Part shown: one piece after another, positions 37,211 to 48,193 of the stretch
Layout of the letters: each line of letters opens with the position of its first letter
Numbering within the stretch: the stretch's first letter is position 1
DNA from: Glycomyces sp. TRM65418
Lineage (GTDB): Bacteria; Actinomycetota; Actinomycetes; Mycobacteriales; Micromonosporaceae
Direction: 5' to 3'
Assembly (NCBI RefSeq): GCF_019710475.1
Contig: NZ_JAJFAX010000005.1
Coordinates: 186,001 to 250,000, forward strand
Length of the DNA: 64,000 nt
Notes under the pieces: model-generated
What the model was told of the DNA's origin: nothing
The model's input: the letters and a program-made list of their open reading frames with translations, nothing else
Databases searched by the model: none
Translations under genes and position numbers: made by a program

Positions 37211-38404
37211 ATGAACGACACCACGAACGAGCAAGTGCGGCAGTGGATCAAGGCCAACGCCCATCCTCTCGACGATCTGAGCGCCCTGCCCGCGATCATC
37301 GGGGACGCCGCGATCGTCGGCATCGGCGAGACCACCCGCGCCGCCCACGAGATCGACCGCCTCCGGCTGCGGATGTTCCAGGTCATGGTCGACGAGCTCG
37401 GGTTCCGGGCGCTCGCGATCAAGGACGGCGAGATCATCGGCGAACGGCTCGACGACCTGGTCCGCGGCGGCGGCGAGGACCCCGAAGCGGTGCTCGCGGA
37501 GGCCTGGCCGCCGTGGCGCACCGAGGAGACCGTCGCGGCCCTGGAATGGATCCGCTCCTACAACCGCGAGCACCCGGACGACCCGGTGCGGGTCTTCGGG
37601 ACCGACGCGGCCGGGGCGCAGCCGTACCACTACGACGCGGTCGTCGACTACGTGCGGCGCACGGCCCCGCAGCGGCTCGACGCGATCAAGGCGCTGCTCG
37701 CCGGGCCGCGCAGCGCCCACCGGGTCGACGAGCACATTCAGCGCTTCCGCGGCGCCCACCCCGGGAGGCCGTTCGCCGAGGACGCCCGCGACGCCTACGA
37801 CCTGGTGGCGGCCCTGCCCGAGGACGAGGAACGCGAGCACGTCCTGCGTTACGCGCAAGCCATCGTGGACCACCACTCGTCGAGCGTGGCCGCGGGCATG
37901 GACTTCGCCGCGTGGATGCGGACGGTCGCCGACACGCTCCTGCGGCGGCACCGGGAGACCGGCGCGAAGATCGCTTACTGGGACGGCATCGCCATCACCG
38001 CGAACTCGCATGCGATGCAGGTCGCGATCGACGCGGACCAGCGGTTCACCACGGCCGGCGGGCATCTGCGGGAGCGGCTGGGCGACCGGTACCTGTCGAT
38101 GATGATCGGCTTCGGGGAGGGCGAGATCCACGACGGCGTGCGGGTTCCGGCCCCGCCGGCGGACTACGCCGAGACCGCCCTGGGGACCGGCGAGTCCTAC
38201 TACCTGGACCTGCGCACGCCGGCACCGGAGGAGGTCGCGAGGTGGCTGGAGGGCGGCGGCAAGGTGCGAGTGGTGCCGGGCGTCTACGACCCCGCGGAGG
38301 ACGAGAAGCACCACGTGGTCGCGGAGTCGTTGCAGGAGTGGTTCGACGTGGTCGCGTACCTCCCGCGGATCACCCCGACGACGGTGCTGGAGTCGGCCGG
38401 CTGA
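37211..38404 (+). CDS. Erythromycin esterase-like family protein
   Basis: 397 residues of the Ere/succinoglycan-biosynthesis-like family. The first motif reads GIGETTRAAHEIDRLRLRMF, where active esterases have GEATHGTHEF, so one catalytic His position is Arg. The later AHNxH motif is ITANSHAMQ, with the first His also missing. It may therefore not be a macrolide esterase. A good ribosome site (GAGGAGACGCC) precedes ATG 37211. It is a single-gene unit. Confidence 0.82.
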   Translation: MNDTTNEQVRQWIKANAHPLDDLSALPAIIGDAAIVGIGETTRAAHEIDRLRLRMFQVMVDELGFRALAIKDGEIIGERLDDLVRGGGEDPEAVLAEAWPPWRTEETVAALEWIRSYNREHPDDPVRVFGTDAAGAQPYHYDAVVDYVRRTAPQRLDAIKALLAGPRSAHRVDEHIQRFRGAHPGRPFAEDARDAYDLVAALPEDEEREHVLRYAQAIVDHHSSSVAAGMDFAAWMRTVADTLLRRHRETGAKIAYWDGIAITANSHAMQVAIDADQRFTTAGGHLRERLGDRYLSMMIGFGEGEIHDGVRVPAPPADYAETALGTGESYYLDLRTPAPEEVARWLEGGGKVRVVPGVYDPAEDEKHHVVAESLQEWFDVVAYLPRITPTTVLESAG

Positions 38405-38557
38405 GGAAGGGCCGCGGAGCACGGCGGCGGGCGAGCGATTCGCCTACGGCCGCACCGTCGGCGGAACGACGCCGTCGCCGACGCGCCCCGAGCGCGCGGT
38501 TCGGCGTCGCCGCCTCACTTGTCGCTCAGGCGCCGCTCGCGGAACTGATCGGCTCGG

Positions 38558-39151
38558 TCAGGGCCCGACGATGACGACATCGAGGCGGCGGGGGCCGTGG
38601 ACGCCTTCCACCCGCTGGAGTTCGATGTCGCTCGTCGCCGACGGACCGGAGATCCAGGTCTGCGGAGCGGTCGGGTCGAGCATCGGCAGCGCCTCCGCCA
38701 GGTGGCCCACGATCCGGTCGCGCCGGACCACCACCACATGGTGGTCCGGCACCAGCGTGATCGCCCTCCGGCCCTGGGCCGCGCCCGCGTCGAGCATGAT
38801 CGTGCCCGAGACCGCCACCGCTGCGGCGCAGCCGGTCAGCACCGCGTCCATGCCGTCCAGGTCCGCAGTGGACAAGGCCTCGTCGGGAACGAAGTCGGCC
38901 CCGCCGAGCTGCCACTCCTCCGGGAGGTCCCCGGGGACCACGACGCGCTTCGCGCCGCCGAGTGCCTCGGGGATCGCATCAAGGCCGTGGTGCACGTTCG
39001 CCTTGTAGTCCACGAGCCGGTCGATGAGCAGCTCGACGATGTCGACCTCCGGGTCGAGCGCGCGGCGGTACTCGCGAGGCGCCGGAGGGGCCTCGCCGGC
39101 GCCTTCGAGGGCCCGCCGCATCCGCTCCAGGATCTCTTCGCGCGCGCTCAT
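38558..39151 (-). CDS. lutC: L-lactate utilisation protein LutC (LUD domain)
   Basis: 197 residues of the LutC/YkgG family. MSAREEILERMRRALEG starts the protein; VDIVELLIDRLVDYKANVHH and VSGTIMLDAGAAQGRRAITL are typical. LutC is one of three proteins (LutABC) that oxidise L-lactate to pyruvate. It is the last gene of the leftward lutABC run, 73 bp after lutB. Confidence 0.92.
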   Translation of the reverse strand: MSAREEILERMRRALEGAGEAPPAPREYRRALDPEVDIVELLIDRLVDYKANVHHGLDAIPEALGGAKRVVVPGDLPEEWQLGGADFVPDEALSTADLDGMDAVLTGCAAAVAVSGTIMLDAGAAQGRRAITLVPDHHVVVVRRDRIVGHLAEALPMLDPTAPQTWISGPSATSDIELQRVEGVHGPRRLDVVIVGP

Positions 39152-39224
39152 CCGATCACCGACTCTCCGCTTGCGCCACAGGAATTCTCGCGTGCGCTCG
39201 CCTGACCGCCGCTTCGCCGCCCGC

Positions 39225-40667
39225 TCACCGCCGCCGCTCCTTCCACCAGTCCCGGAAGTCCTCCTTCGGCGGCGTCGGCATGTCCCTGCTCACCGTCCAC
39301 TTCGATCCCGGCCAAGGCAGTCGCCGCATGAATCCCTTGCGGCGCCAAGGCATCGATCCGAACCTCGCGGCGCGCAACGCCGTCCGCCACAGGCGCGGCC
39401 GGGCCATCACGGCTTTCGCCGCGCCCATAACGGCCCGCTCGCCCGCGTGGTGCGGGCCCTGCTGCCGCAGGTGGACGAGCACTTCGGGGATGTCGATCTT
39501 GACCGGGCAGACCTCGTAGCAGGCCCCGCACAGGCTGGAGGCGTACGGCAGGTCGTCGTGCCTCCCCGGTTCGAGCTGCGGCGCGAGGATCGCGCCGATC
39601 GGGCCCGGGTACACGTGCCCGTACGCGTGCCCGCCGGTCCGCTCGTACACCGGGCAGACGTTGAGGCAGGCCGAGCAGCGGATGCACGAGAGCGCCTGGC
39701 GTCCGACCTCGTCGGCGAGGACGCCGGTTCTGCCGTTGTCGAGCAGGATGACGTGGACGTCCTTCGGCCCGTCGCCGTCGCGCGAGCCGGTCCACACCGA
39801 GGTGTACGGGTTCATCCGCTCGCCGGTCGAGGACCGCGGGAGCAGCTGCATGAAGACCTCGAGGTCCGCGAAGCGCGGCAGGAGCTTCTCGATGCCGACG
39901 ACGCTGATGAGCGTCTCGGGCATCGTGAGGCACATGCGGCCGTTGCCCTCCGACTCGACGACGACGAGCGAGCCGGTCTCGGCCACCGCGAAGTTCGCGC
40001 CCGAGACGGCCGCCTTCGCGGAGAGGAAGCGGCGGCGCAGGTGCAGCCGGGCCGCTTCGGCGAGCGCGGCCGGGTCGTCGGTGAGGCCGGCCGGCGCGTC
40101 GCTCATGCGCTGGTCGAAGATGTCGCGGATCTCGGTGCGGTTGTAGTGGATCGCGGGCACGAGGATGTGGCTGGGCCGGTCCTCGGCGAGCTGGACGATG
40201 AGTTCGGCCAGGTCGGTCTCGAAGGCCTTGAGCCCCACGGCTTCGAAGTGCTCGTTGAGCTCGATCTCCTGGGTGGCCATGGACTTGACCTTGACGACCT
40301 CGTCGGTTCCCGCCTCGCGCACGAGGCGGGCGGCGATCTCGTTGGCCTCCCGGGCGTCCCGGGCCCAGTGGACCGTGGCGCCGGCGGCGGTGGCGTTGCG
40401 TTCGAACTCGACGGCGAGTTCGGGCAGGCGGTGCTGGACGTCGGCCTTGATCGCGGCGGCGGTGTCGCGCAGCCGCTCCCAGTCGTCGAGTTCGTCGACG
40501 AGCCGGGCGCGCTTGGCGCGGATGGTGCCGGTGGCGTGGGCGAGGTTGGCGCGGAGCTGCGGCATGCCGAGGGCGACCTTGGCGGCCTTGGGGAACGGCG
40601 CGTCGGCGGGGAGGAGGGAGGCGGCCGGGACGATCGGCGCGCGGGGCGTTTCGGCGTCGGTGCTCAT
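39225..40667 (-). CDS. lutB: L-lactate utilisation iron-sulfur protein LutB
   Basis: 480 residues. An LUD domain (about 60-290) is followed by a ferredoxin-like segment with CIRCSACLNVCPVYERTGGH and SSLCGACYEVCPVKIDIPEV, giving two 4Fe-4S clusters. Together with LutA and LutC it passes electrons from L-lactate to the respiratory chain. ATG start overlaps the lutA stop (ATGA), showing translational coupling. Confidence 0.95.
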   Translation of the reverse strand: MSTDAETPRAPIVPAASLLPADAPFPKAAKVALGMPQLRANLAHATGTIRAKRARLVDELDDWERLRDTAAAIKADVQHRLPELAVEFERNATAAGATVHWARDAREANEIAARLVREAGTDEVVKVKSMATQEIELNEHFEAVGLKAFETDLAELIVQLAEDRPSHILVPAIHYNRTEIRDIFDQRMSDAPAGLTDDPAALAEAARLHLRRRFLSAKAAVSGANFAVAETGSLVVVESEGNGRMCLTMPETLISVVGIEKLLPRFADLEVFMQLLPRSSTGERMNPYTSVWTGSRDGDGPKDVHVILLDNGRTGVLADEVGRQALSCIRCSACLNVCPVYERTGGHAYGHVYPGPIGAILAPQLEPGRHDDLPYASSLCGACYEVCPVKIDIPEVLVHLRQQGPHHAGERAVMGAAKAVMARPRLWRTALRAARFGSMPWRRKGFMRRLPWPGSKWTVSRDMPTPPKEDFRDWWKERRR

Positions 40668-41383
40668 GCGGTGCTCGCGAGGATCTCGGCGTAGTGGACG
40701 GGCCGCGGGCGGGCGGTGGCGGCGGGGACGTCCCGGTTCAGGCGGGAGATGCCGCCGCCGATGTGGGTGAGGCAGGAGTTGTCGGCGGCGGCGAGGTATT
40801 CGGCGCCGGTGGCCGCGGCGTGGCGGCATTTGTCGGCGAGCATCGCGGAGGAGACCTCGGTGTTCTTCAGGGCGAAGGTGCCGCCGAAGCCGCAGCACTG
40901 GTCGGCGGCGGGGAGGTCGACGAGTTCGATCCCGTCGACGGCGCGCAGGAGCCGCAGGGGCTTGTCGCCCAGGCCGAGGGCGCGGGTGCCGTGGCAGGTC
41001 GGGTGGTAGGTGACGGTGTGCGGGAAGCGCGCGCCGACGTCTTCGACGCCGGCGACGTCGAGGAGGAACTCGGAGAGTTCGTGGACGCGCCGTCCGATGT
41101 CGCCGCCGGTGAGGTGCGGGTACTGGTCGCGGGCCATGGCGGCGCAGGAGCCGGAGGGGGTGACGACGGCGTCGTAGTCGCCGAAGACGGCCTCGAAGGA
41201 GCGGGCGAGCGCCGCCGCGTCGTTCTTGTAGCCGGAGTTGGCGTGCATCTGGCCGCAGCAGGTCTGGGCGGCGGGGAACTCGACGTCGTACCCGAGTCGT
41301 TCGAGGATCCGGACGACGGCTTTGGGCGTCTCGGGGTAGAGGGCGTCGTTGACGCAGGTGATGAACAGTCCTACGCGCGGCAC
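40664..41383 (-). CDS. lutA: L-lactate utilisation protein LutA (CCG domains)
   Basis: 239 residues with two Cys-rich CCG domains: FPAAQTCCGQMHANSGYKN and AADQCCGFGGTFALKN. These ligate Fe-S centres in LutA and in GlcF/HdrD-type proteins. The N-terminus PRVGLFITCVNDALYPE matches the family start, so the GTG at 41383 (AGAGG about 10 nt upstream) is preferred. An ATG at 41428 would add 15 residues. First gene of lutABC. Confidence 0.93.
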   Translation of the reverse strand: MPRVGLFITCVNDALYPETPKAVVRILERLGYDVEFPAAQTCCGQMHANSGYKNDAAALARSFEAVFGDYDAVVTPSGSCAAMARDQYPHLTGGDIGRRVHELSEFLLDVAGVEDVGARFPHTVTYHPTCHGTRALGLGDKPLRLLRAVDGIELVDLPAADQCCGFGGTFALKNTEVSSAMLADKCRHAAATGAEYLAAADNSCLTHIGGGISRLNRDVPAATARPRPVHYAEILASTA

Positions 41384-41428
41384 AGCGGCGGCACCTCTTC
41401 TCGGGTCAGGCGTTTCATGCGGCGACAT

Positions 41429-41534
41429 GACGGCCGCCCAGCGCCGCGGGGCCGCTTGGCGCGGTGCGGCCGGAGGCCGGGGCGGTCAGCGGACCGCGCC
41501 GCCTGCGCGGAGCGCGCGGCGGGTCCGGGGGCGC
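41429..41534. other. Spacer between the lutA start and a tandem repeat
   Basis: Together with the repeat, this makes a 325-bp gap between GntR and lutA. GC-rich, no independent gene is clear. Confidence 0.4.
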
Positions 41535-41747
41535 GCCCCTCGCGCGACGAGCCCGCACCGGTCGCGTGGAACGCGATCGGCGCTGCACGCTCGCCGACCG
41601 CAGCGGTCGCACGCCGACGACGGTCGTTCGAAGCAGCCGGTTCGGAGACGAGCCCCTCGCGGGACGGGCCCGATCCGGTCGCGCGGAACGCGATCGGCGC
41701 TGCACGCTCGCGGAGGGCAGCGGTCGCACGCCGACGACGGTCGTTCG
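41535..41747. repeat. Two direct copies of a 96-bp GC-rich unit
   Basis: Copies at 41535-41630 and 41652-41747 are offset by 117 bp, share CGATCGGCGCTGCACGCTCG and GCCGACGACGGTCGTTCG without change, and differ at scattered bases elsewhere. 117 is a multiple of three, and a 128-codon Arg-rich frame (41371-41757, minus) reads through both as two 39-residue units. That frame begins with ATGA overlapping the GntR stop. Whether it is translated is open. Confidence 0.75.
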
Positions 41748-41753
41748 CTTCGG

Positions 41754-42626
41754 TCATCGTGACGCCTTGGCTCGCTTCGGCTTCGGGGCGGGCTCCGCAC
41801 TGGCGGCCGCCTCGAAGGCCCTCCTGTGACGCGTCCGCGAGCGTTCGAGGTGGCGACGCATCGCCTCCTCGGCGGCAAGCGGTTTCTTCGCAATGATAGC
41901 CTCCGCGACCTCCAGGTGCTCCACCTCGGTCTCGCCGATCGACTCGGGCTCGATGTACGCGCGGTGGAGGTGCAGGTGGGCGTCCAGGCGGCGGATCGCC
42001 TTCGCCAGCTGGACGCTGCCGCTCAGCTCGGCGACGGCGTTGTGGAACCGGGCGTCCGCCTCGGTGAAGTCGAGCTTGTCCGCCTCGGGCGGCGGCGTGC
42101 GGGCCCGGTCGAGGAGCGCGGCGGCCTCGTCCCCGAATCCGTCGACGCCGAGCAGCAGGCGGGCTTCATTCGAGCCGCCGCCGAGAGCCGCATCAGGACC
42201 GGTCCTCCCCGCGGACCTCCGCAACGCGGCACCGCCCCTCGCCTTGGCGCGTCCCGGCGCCGATTCGGCGACCCTCGCCGACTCGCCGCCTCCCGCCGCC
42301 GGCAGCACCGCCCGCTCCGCCGCCCTTCGCGCCGCCAGCGGCTCCAGCAGCATCCGGATCTCGAAGAGGTCCGCGAACTCGCGCTCCGACAGCAGCGGCT
42401 CCACGGTGTAGCCGCTCAGCGGACGCCTCGCCAGCAGCCCCTCGGACTCCAAGCGCGCCAACGATTCCCGGATCGGCGTGTGCGAGAACGCGAGCTCCTT
42501 GGCGAGCCCGTCGATGCTCAGCTTCGCGCCCGGGGCGAGCTCGGAGCGCATGATCCGGGACTTCAGCTCCGTATACGCCTCGTCCGCGAGCGTGCGCTTC
42601 CCCGTGCTCGGTGATGTCGCAGTCAT
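41754..42626 (-). CDS. GntR-family (FCD) regulator of the lut/fucose locus
   Basis: 290 residues. The winged helix is ELKSRIMRSELAPGAKLSID, LAKELAFSHTPIRESLARLE and EGLLARRPLSGYTVEP. The FCD ligand domain has FEIRMLLEPLAARRAAERAV and EADARFHNAVAELSG, with metal/ligand His residues late. An insertion of about 55 Gly/Ala/Arg-rich residues (about 42130-42310) splits the FCD domain between helices and is unusual. It lies between lutABC and the fucose genes and likely controls both. TAGGAT 7 nt before the ATG gives a leaderless start. Confidence 0.9.
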   Translation of the reverse strand: MTATSPSTGKRTLADEAYTELKSRIMRSELAPGAKLSIDGLAKELAFSHTPIRESLARLESEGLLARRPLSGYTVEPLLSEREFADLFEIRMLLEPLAARRAAERAVLPAAGGGESARVAESAPGRAKARGGAALRRSAGRTGPDAALGGGSNEARLLLGVDGFGDEAAALLDRARTPPPEADKLDFTEADARFHNAVAELSGSVQLAKAIRRLDAHLHLHRAYIEPESIGETEVEHLEVAEAIIAKKPLAAEEAMRRHLERSRTRHRRAFEAAASAEPAPKPKRAKASR

Positions 42627-42633
42627 GCCCGCA

Positions 42634-42645
42634 ATCCTATAGGAT
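42634..42645. promoter_or_regulatory. GntR operator between divergent lut and fucose units
   Basis: The perfect 12-bp palindrome ATCCTATAGGAT overlaps the -10 box (TAGGAT) of the GntR gene and lies about 65 bp before the fucose operon start. Such sites are typical for FCD-type GntR proteins. Confidence 0.7.
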
Positions 42646-42708
42646 AGTGTCGCGACAGCGAGGCTGTCCGCCGAGCCGACTTCCCATATGCCCGCATTGG
42701 AGCACCCA

Positions 42709-43698
42709 ATGGCCGCAGCTCGACCTCCGCTTCCCACGCGCACGCTCGGCGACACCGCCGTCCCCGTGACCGCCGTCGGGCTCGGGTGCGCGCCGCTCGC
42801 CGGGCTCTACACGCCCGTGGACCCGGCCGTCGCCGCCGCCACGGTCGACGCCGCCTGGAACGGGGGCGTGCGGCACTTCGACACCGCGCCCCAGTACGGC
42901 GCCGGGCTCTCCGAGCAGCGGCTCGGCGGCGCGCTCGCCGAACGCCCGCGCGAGGCGTTCACCCTGTCCACCAAGATGGGCCGCGTCCTGGTCGACCACG
43001 AAGGCCCCTGGGATATCTGGGGCGAGCCCAACGGCAAGGCCGCCGCCTTCGACTTCTCCTACCGCGCCGCCTTCGACGCCCACCTCGGCAGCCTCGAACG
43101 GCTCGGGACCGACCGCGTCGAGGTCGGCCTCATCCACGACGCCGACGACCACCGGGCCGAAGCCCTCGCCGGCACGCACCGGGCCCTCACCGAGCTCAAG
43201 GCCGCCGGACGCATCGGCGCGATCGGCATCGGCATGAACTCCACCGAAGCCGCCGCCGACCTGGTCTCGCGCGCCCATTTCGACGTCGCCCTCATCGCCG
43301 GGCGCTACACCCTCCTCGACCAGTCCGCCCTGGAGCGGCTCTACCCCCTCTGCCTCTCGCGCGGCGTCTCCGTCATCGCCGCGGGCGTCTTCAACTCCGG
43401 GATCCTCGCCGACCCCAGGCCCGGAGCCCGCTTCAACTACGCGGCGGCCGACCAGCGCCTGCTCGCCCGGGCCCAGGCCATGGCCGCGATCTGCGACCGG
43501 CACGACGTGCCGCTGCGCGCCGCCGCGCTCCAGTTCCCCGCCGCCCACCCCGCCGTCGCGTCGATCCTCGTCGGCGCGCGCACCCCGGCCGAGGTCGAGG
43601 ACGCCCTCGCGATGTACGCCCACCCGATCCCCGGCGCGCTGTGGCACGACCTCAAGCGAGCCGGGCTCCTCGCAGAAGAGGCACCCGTACCGTCATGA
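42709..43698 (+). CDS. Aldo/keto reductase, probable L-fucose (D-threo-aldose) 1-dehydrogenase
   Basis: 329 residues of the AKR fold: LGLGCAPLAGLY-like start, GVRHFDTAPQYGAGLSEQRL with catalytic Asp/Tyr, STKMGRVL with catalytic Lys and VEVGLIHDAD with the active-site His. It most resembles D-threo-aldose dehydrogenases that oxidise L-fucose to L-fuconolactone. The neighbours support that. ATG 42709 follows GGAG by 6 nt; ATG 42688 lacks one. First gene of a five-gene run. Confidence 0.88.
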   Translation: MAAARPPLPTRTLGDTAVPVTAVGLGCAPLAGLYTPVDPAVAAATVDAAWNGGVRHFDTAPQYGAGLSEQRLGGALAERPREAFTLSTKMGRVLVDHEGPWDIWGEPNGKAAAFDFSYRAAFDAHLGSLERLGTDRVEVGLIHDADDHRAEALAGTHRALTELKAAGRIGAIGIGMNSTEAAADLVSRAHFDVALIAGRYTLLDQSALERLYPLCLSRGVSVIAAGVFNSGILADPRPGARFNYAAADQRLLARAQAMAAICDRHDVPLRAAALQFPAAHPAVASILVGARTPAEVEDALAMYAHPIPGALWHDLKRAGLLAEEAPVPS

Positions 43699-44546
43699 AC
43701 GCACCCGTTGTCATCGACGCGCACCACCATCTCTGGACCGCCGACTACGCCTGGCTCGCGAGCCGACCCGAATTCGCCCCCATCCGCCGCGACTACGGCG
43801 TCGAGGACCTGCGCGCCAACCTGAAGGCCGCCGGCGTCGACCGCACCGTCCTGGTCGAGGCCGACTGGGGCCACCCGTCCGAGACCGTGGAGTTCCTGCA
43901 CCTCGCCGGGGCCGTCGACGAGATCGCCGGGGTCGTCGGCCACATCGACCTCCTCTCCCCGCACCTCGGCCACACCCTGGCCCGGTACGCGAACCACCCG
44001 CGGGTCCGGTTCCTCGTCGGCCTCCGCGACCAGGTCCAGGCCCGGCCCGAACCCGACTTCCTCGCCAGGGCGGACGTCATCGCCGCCCTGAAGACCGTCG
44101 CCGCGACCGTGCCGACGTTCGACCTCGTCGTGCGCGTCGACCAGCTCCCGGCCGCCGCCAAGGCCGCCGCGGCCGTGCCCGAGCTCCGGTTCGTGCTCGA
44201 CCACCTCGGCAAGCCCTCGATCCGCGACGGCCAGGCCGGCCTGCGCGCCTGGCGCGAGGCCGTGACGCCGCTCGCCAAGCGCCCCAATGTCACGGCCAAA
44301 CTCTCCGGCCTCGTCACCGAGGCCGACTGGCAGCGCTGGACCCCCGCCGACCTGCGCCCGTTCGTGCAGGATGCCCTCGAACTGTTCGGACCCGACCGCC
44401 TCATGTTCGGATCCGACTGGCCCGTCTGCGAACTGGCCGCCACTTACACCCGCGTCAAGGAGGCCCTCACGGAGGTCCTCGGCCGCGTCGACGCGGATGT
44501 CTTCGGCGGCACCGCCGCCCGCACCTATCAATTGGGAGACTCATGA
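43695..44546 (+). CDS. Amidohydrolase-family lactonase, probable L-fuconolactonase
   Basis: 283 residues, cog3618-type amidohydrolase barrel. IDAHHHLWTADYAWL at the N-terminus, FVLDHLGKPSI and LMFGSDWPVCELAATY at the C-terminal end match L-fuconolactone and rhamnonolactone hydrolases. It opens the lactone made by the preceding dehydrogenase. ATGA overlaps join it to both neighbours, so the genes are translationally coupled. Confidence 0.9.
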   Translation: MNAPVVIDAHHHLWTADYAWLASRPEFAPIRRDYGVEDLRANLKAAGVDRTVLVEADWGHPSETVEFLHLAGAVDEIAGVVGHIDLLSPHLGHTLARYANHPRVRFLVGLRDQVQARPEPDFLARADVIAALKTVAATVPTFDLVVRVDQLPAAAKAAAAVPELRFVLDHLGKPSIRDGQAGLRAWREAVTPLAKRPNVTAKLSGLVTEADWQRWTPADLRPFVQDALELFGPDRLMFGSDWPVCELAATYTRVKEALTEVLGRVDADVFGGTAARTYQLGDS

Positions 44547-45373
44547 AGTACCTGCGCATCGGCCGCCCCGGCTACGAGACCCCCGTCGCGCTCGCCGGCG
44601 GCAAGTACTACGACCTCTCCGGTCCCATCGGCGACATCGACGGCGAGTTCCTGGGCCGCGGCGGCGTCACCACCACCGCGGGCTTCCCCGAGATCGACAT
44701 CGCCGGGCAGCGCATCGCCCCGCCGATCGCCAAGCCCGGCGCGATCGTCTGCATCGGACTCAACTACGCCGCCCACTGCGCCGAGTCCGGCGCCGAACCG
44801 CCCGCCGAGCCGGTGGTGTTCTACAAGCATCCCAACACGATCGTCGGCCCGAACGACGACGTCGAGATCCCGCGGCGGTCCACGAAGACCGACTGGGAGG
44901 TCGAGCTCGGCGTGGTCTTCGCCAAGCGAGCGTCCTATCTGGAATCCGAGGAGGCGGCGCTCGACTGCATCGCCGGGTTCGTCGTCGCCAACGACCTGTC
45001 CGAGCGCGAGTTCCAGATCGAGCGCTCCGGCGGCCAGTTCTCCAAGGGCAAGGCCTGCCCGACCTTCACGCCGCTCGGCCCCTGGCTCGTGACGCCCGAC
45101 GAGGTCGCGGACGTCCAGGACCTGCGTCTGTGGTCCAAGGTGAACGGCGAGGGCCGCCAGGACTCGAACACCGGCGACATGATCTTCTCGGTCGCCCGCA
45201 TCATCCACCACATGTCCCAGTTCATGGCCTTCGACCCGGGCGACCTGCTGCTCACGGGCACCCCCGAGGGCGTCGCGCTCTCCGGGCGCTTCCCGTACCT
45301 CAAGGCCGGGGACGTCGTCGAGGTCGGCATCGACGGGCTCGGCTCGACCGCGAATCCGACGGTGCAGGCATGA
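44543..45373 (+). CDS. Fumarylacetoacetate hydrolase-family protein, probable 2,4-diketo-3-deoxy-L-fuconate hydrolase
   Basis: 276 residues. The FAH core has [14 protein letters not shown], the metal-binding acids in [15 protein letters not shown] and [12 protein letters not shown], and [14 protein letters not shown]. In fucose and related pathways an FAH enzyme splits 2,4-diketo-3-deoxy-L-fuconate into pyruvate and L-lactate. The assignment comes from its place between a fuconolactonase and a fuconate dehydratase. ATGA overlap with the gene before. Confidence 0.9.
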
Positions 45374-45428
45374 CGCCCCGCACCCGACCGGCCCGCCTCG
45401 CCCGCCGCTTCCCGAACCGGAGTGCACG

Positions 45429-46718
45429 CTGACTATCACGGCAGTGGACGTCCTCGACGTCCGATTCCCCACCTCGCGCAGCCTCGACGGCTCCGACGCG
45501 ATGAACCCCGACCCCGACTACTCGGCCGCCTACGTCGTGCTCCACACCGACAGCGGGCACGAGGGCCACGGGTTCACCTTCACCATCGGCCGCGGCAACG
45601 ACCTCTGCTGCGCGGCGATCGAGACGCTCGGCGAGTACGTCGTAGGGACCGATGTGGAGGGCCCGGCAGACCTCGCCGCCCTCTACAAGCGGCTCACCCA
45701 CGACTCCCAGATCCGCTGGCTCGGACCGGAGAAGGGCGTCATGCACCTCGCGGCCGCCGCCCTCGTGAACGCCGCCTGGGACCTCGCCGCCCGCCGCGCC
45801 GGGCTGCCGCTGTGGAAGTACCTCAGCGCCCTCACCCCCGAGCAGATCGTCGAGTGCGTCGACTGGCGCTACCTCAGCGATGCCCTCACTCCCGAAGAGG
45901 CCCTGGCCATCCTGCGCAAAGCGGAGGACGGCAAGGCCGAGCGCGTCGCCGAGATCGAGCGCGACGGCTACCCGGCCTACACCACCTCGCCCGGCTGGCT
46001 CGGCTACTCGGACGAGAAGGTCGTGCGCCTCGCCCGCGAGGCCGTCGCCGAGGGCTACACCCAGATCAAACTGAAGGTCGGCGCGGACCTGGAGGACGAC
46101 CGCCGCCGCTTCGCCGCCGCCCGCGCGGCCGTCGGGCCGGACGTCCGCATCGCGATCGACGCGAACCAGCGCTGGGACGTCGACCAGGCCGTGGCGTGGA
46201 CGAAGGCGCTCGCCGAGTTCGACCCGTGGTGGATCGAGGAGCCGACCAGCCCGGACGACGTGCTCGGCCACGCCGCCATCCGCGAGCGCCTGGCGCCCGT
46301 CAAGGTCGCCACCGGGGAGCACGTGCACAACCGGGTCATGTTCAAGCAGCTCCTGCAGGCCGGCTCGATCGACTTCCTCCAGATGGACGCCGCCCGCGTC
46401 GCCGGGGTCAACGAGAACCTCGCGATCCTCCTGCTGGCGGCGAAGTTCGGCGTGCCGGTCTGCCCGCACGCGGGCGGGGTGGGCCTGTGCGAACTGGTCT
46501 GCCATCTGTCCATGTTCGACTACACCTCGGTGAGCGCCTCCATGGAGGACCGCGTCATCGAGTACGTCGACCACCTGCACGAGCACTTCACCGCCCCCAC
46601 GGTCATCGAGCACGGGCGCTACAAGGCGCCCGTCGAACCGGGTTTCTCGGCGGAGATGAAGCGCGAGAGCCTGATCCGCTACTCCTATCCTAACGGTCCT
46701 GAATGGAGCGAAAGCTGA
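45429..46718 (+). CDS. L-fuconate dehydratase (enolase superfamily)
   Basis: 429 residues. [20 protein letters not shown], the catalytic KxK in IKLKVG, metal ligands [21 protein letters not shown] and TGEHVHNRV, and the base in [13 protein letters not shown] agree closely with the characterised Xanthomonas enzyme. It dehydrates L-fuconate to 2-keto-3-deoxy-L-fuconate. I place the start at a CTG (45429) because GGAG sits 6 nt before it and TITAVDV aligns with the family N-terminus. The first ordinary start, GTG 45444, would drop a beta-strand. Confidence 0.95.
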
Positions 46719-47458
46719 TGAGCGACGCCTTCCACGGTCTCACCGTCGTGATCTCCGGGGGCGCCTCCGGGATCGGGGCGGCCGCGGCCGACGCCTTCGC
46801 CGCGCGCGGCGCGAACGTCGCCGTGCTCGACCTCAACGCGAGCGAGACGCACTGGTCGCACCGGTGCGACGTCGCCGACGACAACCAGGTCCGCCTGGCC
46901 GTGGCCGCGACCAAGGAGCACTTCGGCGGCATCGACATCGTGGTCAACAACGCCGGGATCGGCGCGGTCGGCAGCGTGGAGGAGAACTCCGACAAGCAGT
47001 GGTTCCGCGTCCTCGACGTGAACCTGCTCGGCATGGTCCGCCTCGCACGCGCCTGCCTGCCGCACCTGCGCGAGTCGTCCGCTCCGGCGATCGTGAACAC
47101 CTCCTCGATCGCCGCGACCGCCGGCCTGGTCAAGCGGGCCCTGTACTCGGCCTCGAAGGGCGCGGTCCACTCGCTGACCATGGCGATGGCCGCCGACCAT
47201 GTGGCCGAAGGCATCCGCGTCAACTGCGTCGCCCCCGGCACCGCCGACACCCCGTGGGTCCAGCGCCTGCTCGACCAGGCCGAGGACCCCGAGGCCGAGC
47301 GCGCCCGGCTCGAAGCCCGCCAGCCGACCGGCCGCCTGGTGAGCGCCGAGGAGGTCGCGGCGGCGATCGTCTACCTGGCCGACCCGGCCAACAAGGCGAT
47401 CACCGGCACGAGCCTCGCGGTCGACGGCGGCATGTCGGGCCTGCGCCTGGTCCGCTAG
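46718..47458 (+). CDS. SDR-family oxidoreductase, probable 2-keto-3-deoxy-L-fuconate dehydrogenase
   Basis: 246 residues of the classical SDR fold: VVISGGASGIGAAAADAF for NAD(P), NNAGIGAVGSV, the Ser of NTSSIAATAGL, and YSASKGAVH with catalytic Tyr and Lys. By position it oxidises the product of fuconate dehydratase before the FAH-type cleavage. The ATG overlaps the dehydratase stop (TGATG) after GGAGCGAAAGC. Last gene of the operon. No fucose transporter is seen in the window. Confidence 0.9.
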   Translation: MSDAFHGLTVVISGGASGIGAAAADAFAARGANVAVLDLNASETHWSHRCDVADDNQVRLAVAATKEHFGGIDIVVNNAGIGAVGSVEENSDKQWFRVLDVNLLGMVRLARACLPHLRESSAPAIVNTSSIAATAGLVKRALYSASKGAVHSLTMAMAADHVAEGIRVNCVAPGTADTPWVQRLLDQAEDPEAERARLEARQPTGRLVSAEEVAAAIVYLADPANKAITGTSLAVDGGMSGLRLVR

Positions 47459-47482
47459 GAGCCGCCGAGACCCCGATCCGGA

Positions 47483-48193
47483 CTACTCCCCGGCGAGTTC
47501 GGGGTACAGCAGGGCCGGGTCGGCGCTCATGGCGGCTTTGAGGTCGACCGTGGCCTGGTCGGCGAGCACTTCCAGCGAACCGGATTCGATGCCGTCGAGA
47601 CCGGCTCGGGCGACCGCGGCCGGGTCGGCCTTCGGGACGTCGAACCCGGCGGTCATGTCGGTGTCGACCATGCCGACGAACAGGCCGCTCACCTGCGTGC
47701 CCTGCGCGGCCAGTTCGAGCCGGACGCCGTTGGTGAGGCTCCAGGAGGCGGCCTTCGATGCGGCGTACGAGTCCGCGAGCATCCCGGGCGAGCGCCATGC
47801 CGCGCCGGACAGGATGTTCAGGATCGCTCCCCCGCCGCCCGCGGCGAGGACCGGAGCAAAGGCGCGGACCATGTTGAGCGTGCCGAAGTAGTTGGTCTCC
47901 ATGTCCTGCCGGATCAGCGCCTCGTCCCCGTTGACGAGGTTGGCGAGGGTCGAGATCCCCGCGTTGTTGACGAGGACGGTGACGTCCGATGCGGTCGCGG
48001 CGGCGGCCGCGACCGAGGCGGGGTCGGTGATGTCGAGCCGGAGGGCTTCGACGCCGGGGAGGTCGACGCTCTCGGGGTTGCGGGCCGCGGCGTAGACCTT
48101 GGTCGCGCCGCGTTCGAGGAGCTGCTGCGCGAAGTGGCGGCCGATGCCGCGGTTGGCGCCGGTGACGAGGGCGGTCGAGCCGTGGATCTGCAT
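47483..48193 (-). CDS. SDR-family oxidoreductase under MerR control
   Basis: 236 residues: ALVTGANRGIGRHFAQQLL, VNNAGIST, SGAAWRSPGML and YAASKAASWSLTNG show cofactor site and Tyr-Lys pair. LINGVR-type sequence variants make the substrate unclear; it resembles SDRs that detoxify reactive carbonyls. It converges on the fucose operon but its own promoter (TTGCCT, 20-bp spacer, TAGCGT) points to the divergent MerR as activator. TTGGAG precedes the ATG. Confidence 0.9.
   Translation of the reverse strand: MQIHGSTALVTGANRGIGRHFAQQLLERGATKVYAAARNPESVDLPGVEALRLDITDPASVAAAAATASDVTVLVNNAGISTLANLVNGDEALIRQDMETNYFGTLNMVRAFAPVLAAGGGGAILNILSGAAWRSPGMLADSYAASKAASWSLTNGVRLELAAQGTQVSGLFVGMVDTDMTAGFDVPKADPAAVARAGLDGIESGSLEVLADQATVDLKAAMSADPALLYPELAGE

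Follow-up and report, generated by a model that had tools for sequence, protein, structure and literature searches.

Why should genes for L-lactate oxidation stand back to back with a complete set of genes for L-fucose breakdown, around one regulatory gene and one short palindrome? The question is raised by a 64,000-nucleotide (nt) stretch of the genome of the soil actinobacterium Glycomyces sp. TRM65418 (contig NZ_JAJFAX010000005.1, positions 186,001 to 250,000; hereafter the window), in which a leftward unit made of gntR, coding for a GntR/FCD regulator, and of lutA, lutB and lutC diverges from a rightward unit made of akr (aldo/keto reductase, AKR), ahy (amidohydrolase), fah (FAH-family hydrolase), fcd (L-fuconate dehydratase) and sdr (SDR). 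An initial annotation of this locus had proposed that both arms respond to one control, and the distribution of the palindrome ATCCTATAGGAT, which in different genera and gene orders stands at gntR, akr, fah, ahy, fcd and lutA as well as at fucosidase-family and sugar-binding-protein genes, argues for that proposal. The locus is very probably the hub of an L-fucose regulon governed by the GntR/FCD protein, here named FucR, with L-lactate oxidation as one of its members. The pairing of lutABC with the fucose genes looks deliberate, since the same switch recurs in relatives before fucosidase, sugar-binding and lactate genes.

The palindrome at the gntR promoter is perfect, as annotated, and lies 7 nt upstream of the gntR ATG (42626). 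Two exact copies are present in the 5.09-Mb genome of the strain, against an expectation of 0.0055 per genome under a first-order Markov model derived from the window. The second copy precedes by 6 nt the start of a gene of the alpha-fucosidase family GH95 that is unlinked to the locus, scores 506 bits against the GH95 catalytic model and is the only GH95 match of this genome; GH29 had no match there. Of 39 GH95 matches collected, 32 were examined for a site. Among 21 orthologues in the genus (66-100% identity, the gene of the strain itself included), 12 have the exact site 6-7 nt before their start, and among 11 members of another GH95 class (37-41%) none has it. Given this placement, the possibility that the second copy is unrelated was rejected. 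A generic association of the palindrome with FCD-type GntR genes was rejected as well, in view of the two exact copies in this genome and the one to four in each of nine others, the number of GntR genes per genome being uncounted.

A search of 121 genomes for fuconate dehydratase gave a match at E 1e-80 or better in 68. Twenty loci with a match of 82-91% identity make up the same-genus set; it does not include a 21st genome of the genus (G016), whose matches are one of 54% and four partial ones at 62-67%. The synteny that the initial annotation had suggested looking for, GntR-lutABC beside a fuconate dehydratase, is widespread in the genus, gntR being divergent from akr-ahy-fah-fcd-sdr in all 20 loci, and the linkage of lutABC recurs in other genera. 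The lutABC genes are complete at 18 of the 20 loci, decayed in L042 and lost to a contig end inside gntR in L043. All 20 loci have an exact ATCCTATAGGAT where gntR and akr meet, with the gntR ATG 7 nt away in 19 relatives, as in the window, and 8 nt away in L049. This conservation, together with the excess over the expected number of copies, places the palindrome beyond chance.

Outside this set, another 116 loci of fuconate dehydratase, 2.19 Mb in all (114 from outside the genus and two of a Glycomyces paralogue), contain 15 exact copies, versus a total of two for 13 control palindromes of 12 bp. They also contain five copies with one mismatch, four of them at the starts of gntR, fcd or ahy, with one in Halopolyspora. 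Gene starts near sites were taken from a simple open reading frame (ORF) script, and proteins were named by family search or tblastn in some cases and by eye in the others. Exact sites in loci of other genera adjoin gntR, akr, fah (L071) or ahy (L075). Two genomes that belong to one genus (L076, L078) have the palindrome between divergent lutA and fcd, in Kribbella (L284) it lies 72 bp before the fcd match, and in L067 it precedes a sugar-binding-protein gene. In Actinoplanes rectilineatus (L292, 7357) the 12-mer sits within a longer perfect inverted repeat, TTTCGTAGATCCTATAGGATCTACGAAA.

Nine genomes of six other genera, picked because their fcd loci had the palindrome, were searched whole; G030, which also has it at its fcd locus, was left out of this search. 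They hold 22 exact copies, one to four each, of which 11 are at fcd loci. The others adjoin (i) fucosidase-family and sugar-binding genes, namely a GH95 gene together with a GntR/FCD gene (L317), a GH29 alpha-L-fucosidase-family gene (L318), two genes for GH95-like secreted proteins barely over the cut-off and two for Peripla_BP_4 sugar-binding proteins (both pairs in L315 and L316); (ii) lactate genes, namely gntR-lutABC opposite a Lactonase-family gene (L320, with L321 similar by eye) and lutABC alone, where a GTG fits 8 nt past the site by eye (L319); and (iii) an aldehyde dehydrogenase gene with a LacI-type gene (L323) and a gene for a ThuA protein (L322). In seven of the nine genomes lutABC adjoins a palindrome, and in three of these seven it does so apart from the fucose locus, on another contig in G059 and megabases away in G031 and G068.

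Each half of the palindrome reads TAGGAT (ATCCTA/TAGGAT) and resembles a -10 element, actinobacterial -10 boxes being of the form TANNNT. The palindrome might thus be merely the core of a bidirectional promoter, with two TAGGAT boxes, and the regulator bind elsewhere. The constant spacing to the gntR start, shared by the window and 19 of its 20 relatives, would suit such a core, as would the placement of all 12 site-bearing GH95 genes, which start 6-7 nt past the site, and the many copies found elsewhere in some Glycomyces genomes. A mere promoter core, however, would hardly be expected at fah in L071 and at ahy in L075, where the full palindrome is kept at other distances, although the scan there covered only the nine genes of the locus and an unseen divergent gene is possible; nor would it explain why the few copies of the nine other genomes cluster at fucose and lut genes, while the 13 other palindromes score only two hits in the same 2.19 Mb. 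We therefore regard a promoter core without operator function as unlikely, and keep to the palindrome as the candidate operator of FucR.

LutR of Bacillus subtilis is a GntR-type regulator, and the signal sensed at this locus could likewise be lactate: the regulator would then be a LutR-like L-lactate sensor, which the fucose genes follow since fucose yields lactate. Such a sensor agrees with the position of gntR at the head of the lut unit, at this locus as well as in other genera, and LldR is among the members of the FadR subfamily (PMC4494728). A fucose signal, however, better accounts for the occurrence of the site at fcd, fah and ahy as well as at GH95, GH29 and sugar-binding-protein genes, and two genomes (G037 and G062) have no lut gene beside a site. 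A lactate sensor appears rather unlikely on these grounds. As an inducer for FucR, we prefer a fucose-derived signal to lactate because the palindrome also precedes fucosidase-family and sugar-binding genes.

The rightward unit encodes together all five enzyme families of the non-phosphorylating L-fucose pathway that runs through a diketo hydrolase, and the pathway assigned to it by the initial annotation agrees with the closest solved proteins of the five predicted enzymes. The dehydratase matches, over its full length, the L-fuconate dehydratase structures 2hne/1yey, which presumably come from Xanthomonas. The best solved relatives of the amidohydrolase are the 4dlf group (131 bits), which we take to be fuconolactonase. 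Those of the AKR are L-galactose dehydrogenases (103 bits), L-fucose being 6-deoxy-L-galactose. For the FAH hydrolase, which reaches 271 bits against NF053535, under the cut-off of 500, the best solved relative is 8gsr, an L-2,4-diketo-3-deoxyrhamnonate hydrolase (224 bits); the rhamnose-route hydrolase LRA6 is reported to be close to FucG of the fucose route, the same intermediate being split to pyruvate and L-lactate (PMC11199699). Among solved proteins, the best match of the SDR is 4dqx, followed by 2ag5 and 8xwk. The first of these has been placed near the type-2 2-keto-3-deoxyfuconate (KDF) dehydrogenases, with two arginine ligands, and the carboxylate-binding arginines of the KDF dehydrogenase of Herbaspirillum huttiense are Arg148 and Arg214 (PMC11199699). 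In the alignments as printed, from which the pairing was read, R145 (three residues before Y148) and R206-Q207 of the SDR align with the arginines of 4dqx and 2ag5; as far as these alignments go, the protein has the arginines expected of a KDF dehydrogenase. The activities of the rightward unit are thus predicted ones. A second gene resembling fuconate dehydratase (51% identical) is found in the same genome at G000:C1:858355-859623, and no other gene of the unit was matched within the 19 kb fetched around it (L079).

The kinship of the AKR leaves room for another substrate, L-galactose or D-arabinose instead of L-fucose. Related enzymes accept several such sugars, which adds to the case for these substrates. 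However, L-fuconate dehydratase is the nearest relative of the dehydratase, the site is shared by GH29 and GH95 genes, and L-lactate arises from the last cleavage only with a 6-deoxy sugar, which would also account for the repeated linkage to lutABC. L-Galactose or D-arabinose as the sugar is quite improbable, and L-fucose remains our assignment.

The leftward genes show the domain sets of LutABC/LldEFG in order, lldEFG and lutABC being presumably the same genes: CCG in LutA, LUD with Fer4 and LutB_C in LutB, and LUD in LutC. L-lactate oxidation is accordingly the predicted function. LutB, the single match in this genome, falls slightly below the NCBIfam LutB cut-off of TIGR00273 (438.5 vs 444.8 bits). 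A further small correction to the annotated layout concerns the lutA-gntR gap, which measures 325 bp and includes a 117-bp tandem duplication. This repeat has no second place in the genome and was rejected as a dispersed element. Among 19 same-genus loci measured by script estimate, the gap lies between -49 and 159 nt wherever lutABC is complete (18 loci, with a negative value in six), and reaches 311 nt in L042, whose lut genes are decayed. A terminator scan found no terminator-like site across 38400-47600. Given the mostly short or negative gaps and the lack of a terminator-like site, gntR and lutABC probably form one transcript. A sigma-70 scan of the unit found nothing, and the gntR-lutA spacer is predicted to fold no better than shuffled sequences do (z -0.39).

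How general the association is can be judged from 80 named fcd loci, six of which have the palindrome and six a full lutABC within reach; three have partial lut genes and 71 show none. The association of lutABC with fucose genes is recurrent, not general, as these counts indicate. The absence of lut genes at some fetched loci is weak evidence because contig ends cut them. The loci with full lutABC are two of Glycomyces and those of Kitasatospora (L226), Streptacidiphilus (L237), Streptomyces (L263) and Peterkaempfera (L288), which we take to be Streptomycetaceae and which have lutABC within a co-directional fah-fcd-sdr-akr-lutABC-ahy array and lack an exact palindrome; in L228 the matches are to parts of lutA and lutC only. 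If the two units were unrelated neighbours by chance, the 71 loci without a nearby lut gene would be as expected, but the linkage would not recur in several arrangements, among them the co-directional arrays of four other named records. Chance adjacency is hardly credible.

The regulon could operate as follows. With no inducer, a FucR dimer on ATCCTATAGGAT would cover both -10 regions and keep gntR-lutABC and the fucose operon off, while also blocking the unlinked GH95 gene. Fucose, or an acid derived from it, would lift the repression. L-Fucose would then be converted to fuconolactone, fuconate, 2-keto-3-deoxyfuconate and its 4-keto form, which would be split to pyruvate and L-lactate. LutABC would oxidise L-lactate to a second pyruvate, and one C6 sugar would therefore yield two pyruvates. 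The earlier proposal that all fucose carbon ends as pyruvate would follow from the stoichiometry if the enzymes act as their families do. The binding of FucR to DNA, repression, the identity of the inducer and the use of the half-sites as -10 elements are all parts that we infer, and the gntR and GH95 transcripts would be leaderless, judging from the distance between half-site and start codon. A more specific version is possible, and we advance it only tentatively: the 12-bp palindrome would be operator and core promoter at once, with back-to-back -10 boxes driving a leaderless regulator-lactate mRNA in one direction and the sugar operon in the opposite one, and a single dimer with an atypical FadR-subfamily recognition lacking GT/AC would switch both arms all-or-none, the element being re-used before fucosidase, sugar-binding and unlinked lutABC genes across genera. 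Divergent bacterial promoters with symmetric elements are known (PMC12825309, PMC10268837).

Several observations weigh against the regulon as proposed, the first of which concerns its regulator. The GntR protein has the FadR-subfamily architecture, an N-terminal GntR winged helix-turn-helix (PF00392) followed by a C-terminal FCD domain (PF07729), with the candidate Asp/His motifs DARFH, EHLEVAE and MRRHL, whose residues are presumably metal ligands. Operators of this subfamily have a palindromic GT...AC core, NanR and BioR being named exceptions (PMC4494728). ATCCTATAGGAT has no GT/AC pair and so departs from what is a consensus and not an absolute criterion, which lowers our confidence in this GntR protein as the binder.

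A second set of such observations concerns membership. Nine of the 21 GH95 orthologues have no exact site, most of the 80 named fcd loci have neither palindrome nor lutABC, and G037 and G062 lack a lut gene at any site. In L042 / L213 (Glycomyces harbinensis), gntR and the fucose operon are kept with a lutA fragment only and no lutB or lutC match; L042 is a natural loss of lut at a fucose locus. The genome of the strain also contains an FMN_dh-family gene (443 bits), which could be another lactate route, and a partial match to the lactate permease family (53 bits, over the cut-off). The lutABC genes therefore need not be the sole lactate route, and LutABC may also serve external lactate.

A third set concerns the motif itself. 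Seven of 22 Glycomyces genomes (G017, G010, G011, G004, G001, G003 and G016; the loci of G017 and G016 are L153-L181) hold 9-29 exact copies. Of the 28 copies that G017 has away from its fucose locus, 19 have an extra ATATCCT arm, often as ATCCTATAGGATATATCCT, and some lie near genes that by eye resemble housekeeping genes such as those for aconitase, Hsp70 or alanine racemase. A divergent pair of glucose/sorbosone-dehydrogenase-family and D-2-hydroxyacid-dehydrogenase-family genes, between which the palindrome lies in L008, is represented by seven similar loci with the site (L008 4974, which is G000:C3:76973 in the genome of the strain, with one mismatch; L132, L134, L137, L143, L159 and L169), the gene families having been checked for the L008 copy only. 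In the many-copy genomes the motif looks like a dispersed element or like one put to a second use, and a regulon for fucose alone does not account for these copies. Separately, in four Glycomyces genomes with 3-5 copies (L123, L130, L140 and L152) the palindrome precedes a small conserved gene, MGRGRAKAKQTKVARKLKYHAPNTD..., presumably DUF3073.

The non-phosphorylating L-fucose route via 2,4-diketo-3-deoxyfuconate is described in Xanthomonas campestris and Herbaspirillum huttiense, where it ends in pyruvate and L-lactate (PMC11199699). The predicted steps are the same here, and for the dehydratase, the hydrolase and the SDR there are solved homologues from this route or from its sister route. 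Unlike the route as described in that paper, the Glycomyces locus adds lutABC and a GntR operator in one proposed regulon, and its first enzyme is an L-galactose-dehydrogenase-like AKR. RhaR regulons of Actinomycetales and Rhodobacterales include lldD/lldEFG (PMC3870299) and, as proposed here, carry a 6-deoxyhexose regulon on to pyruvate by an added L-lactate dehydrogenase such as lldEFG. As reported, they deal with rhamnose through RhaEW under LacI-/DeoR-type regulators, whereas the present locus has a GntR/FCD regulator with another operator and sugar genes of the non-phosphorylating fucose type in place of a LacI/DeoR regulator with rhamnose genes. LutABC with LutR serves lactate use in B. 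subtilis (PMC11734750, PMC3924224); lutABC would be under a repressor of the same kind in Glycomyces, one that would, unlike LutR, also govern fucose catabolism and fucosidase-family genes. Finally, FucR loci with oxidative fucose genes were delineated by comparative genomics in Halomonas, A. marincola and Rhodobacteriaceae of mat-derived consortia (PMC5507952), taxa other than those considered here, in a paper whose main text does not contain the term 'lut'.

Among the matches listed from open-licence literature, no paper joining lutABC to fuconate genes was found. The 12-mer ATCCTATAGGAT had no occurrence in the same literature, and the sole occurrence of CCTATAGG with GntR was as part of a cloning oligonucleotide. 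Since both the pathway and the addition of lactate genes to rhamnose regulons have been published, the fucose-lutABC association would be a variation on known systems. For fucose use in Actinobacteria it puts forward a regulator, an operator and a gene set that can be tested, and it suggests that lactate from the non-phosphorylating route is handled as part of the pathway and not excreted. If the GntR protein binds the palindrome, a further operator type would be added to those of FCD-domain GntR proteins, and the repeated recruitment of lutABC could mark those sugar-acid loci that handle a 6-deoxy sugar.

Features of the divergent fucose and lactate locus, in window coordinates
Feature	Position	Strand	Evidence
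lutC-like, LUD domain protein (L-lactate oxidation)	38558-39151	-	PF02589 78.7 bits; without NCBIfam match
lutB-like iron-sulfur L-lactate oxidation protein	39225-40685	-	PF02589, Fer4_8, LutB_C; TIGR00273 438.5 bits
lutA-like, CCG (cysteine-rich) domain protein, two stretches	40664-41428	-	PF02754 115.7 bits
117-bp tandem duplication (1.8 copies), gntR-lutA interval	41516-41747	n/a	No second genomic place
GntR/FCD regulator, proposed FucR, heads leftward unit	41754-42626	-	PF00392 55.8 bits; PF07729 62.6 bits
Palindrome ATCCTATAGGAT, proposed FucR operator	42634-42645	n/a	Conservation and genome-wide distribution
Half-site TAGGAT, -10-like; ends 7 nt before gntR ATG	42634-42639	-	Sequence; equal spacing in relatives
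Half-site TAGGAT, putatively -10-like for rightward operon	42640-42645	+	Sequence
TTGGAG, ribosome-binding-like, for AKR start 42709	42697-42702	+	Sequence; similar GGAG in several relatives
Aldo/keto reductase (akr), proposed L-fucose 1-dehydrogenase	42709-43698	+	PF00248 133.5 bits (scored from 42688 start)
Amidohydrolase (ahy), proposed L-fuconolactonase	43695-44546	+	PF04909 139.7 bits
FAH-family hydrolase (fah), proposed 2,4-diketo-3-deoxy-L-fuconate hydrolase (to pyruvate and L-lactate)	44543-45373	+	PF01557 237.1 bits
L-fuconate dehydratase (fcd), enolase superfamily	45444-46718	+	2hne/1yey L-fuconate dehydratase 640 bits
SDR (sdr), proposed 2-keto-3-deoxy-L-fuconate 4-dehydrogenase, type-2-like	46703-47458	+	4dqx 169, 2ag5 139, 8xwk 133 bits

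The gene order, strands, families, motifs and overlaps annotated across 38558-47458 were recovered by ORF analysis and family profile searches. A low-complexity insert separates the helix-turn-helix and FCD domains of the GntR protein (about 42150-42330), and its length is very variable in an alignment of Glycomyces orthologues; it was rejected as a dispersed element, only a 24-bp match being found elsewhere. The start of the AKR was set at 42709 rather than 42688 because of the TTGGAG motif that precedes it. Along the rightward unit, the AKR and amidohydrolase genes (through ATGA), the amidohydrolase and FAH genes, and the dehydratase and SDR genes overlap, and the sole gap is one of 70 bp before the dehydratase gene.

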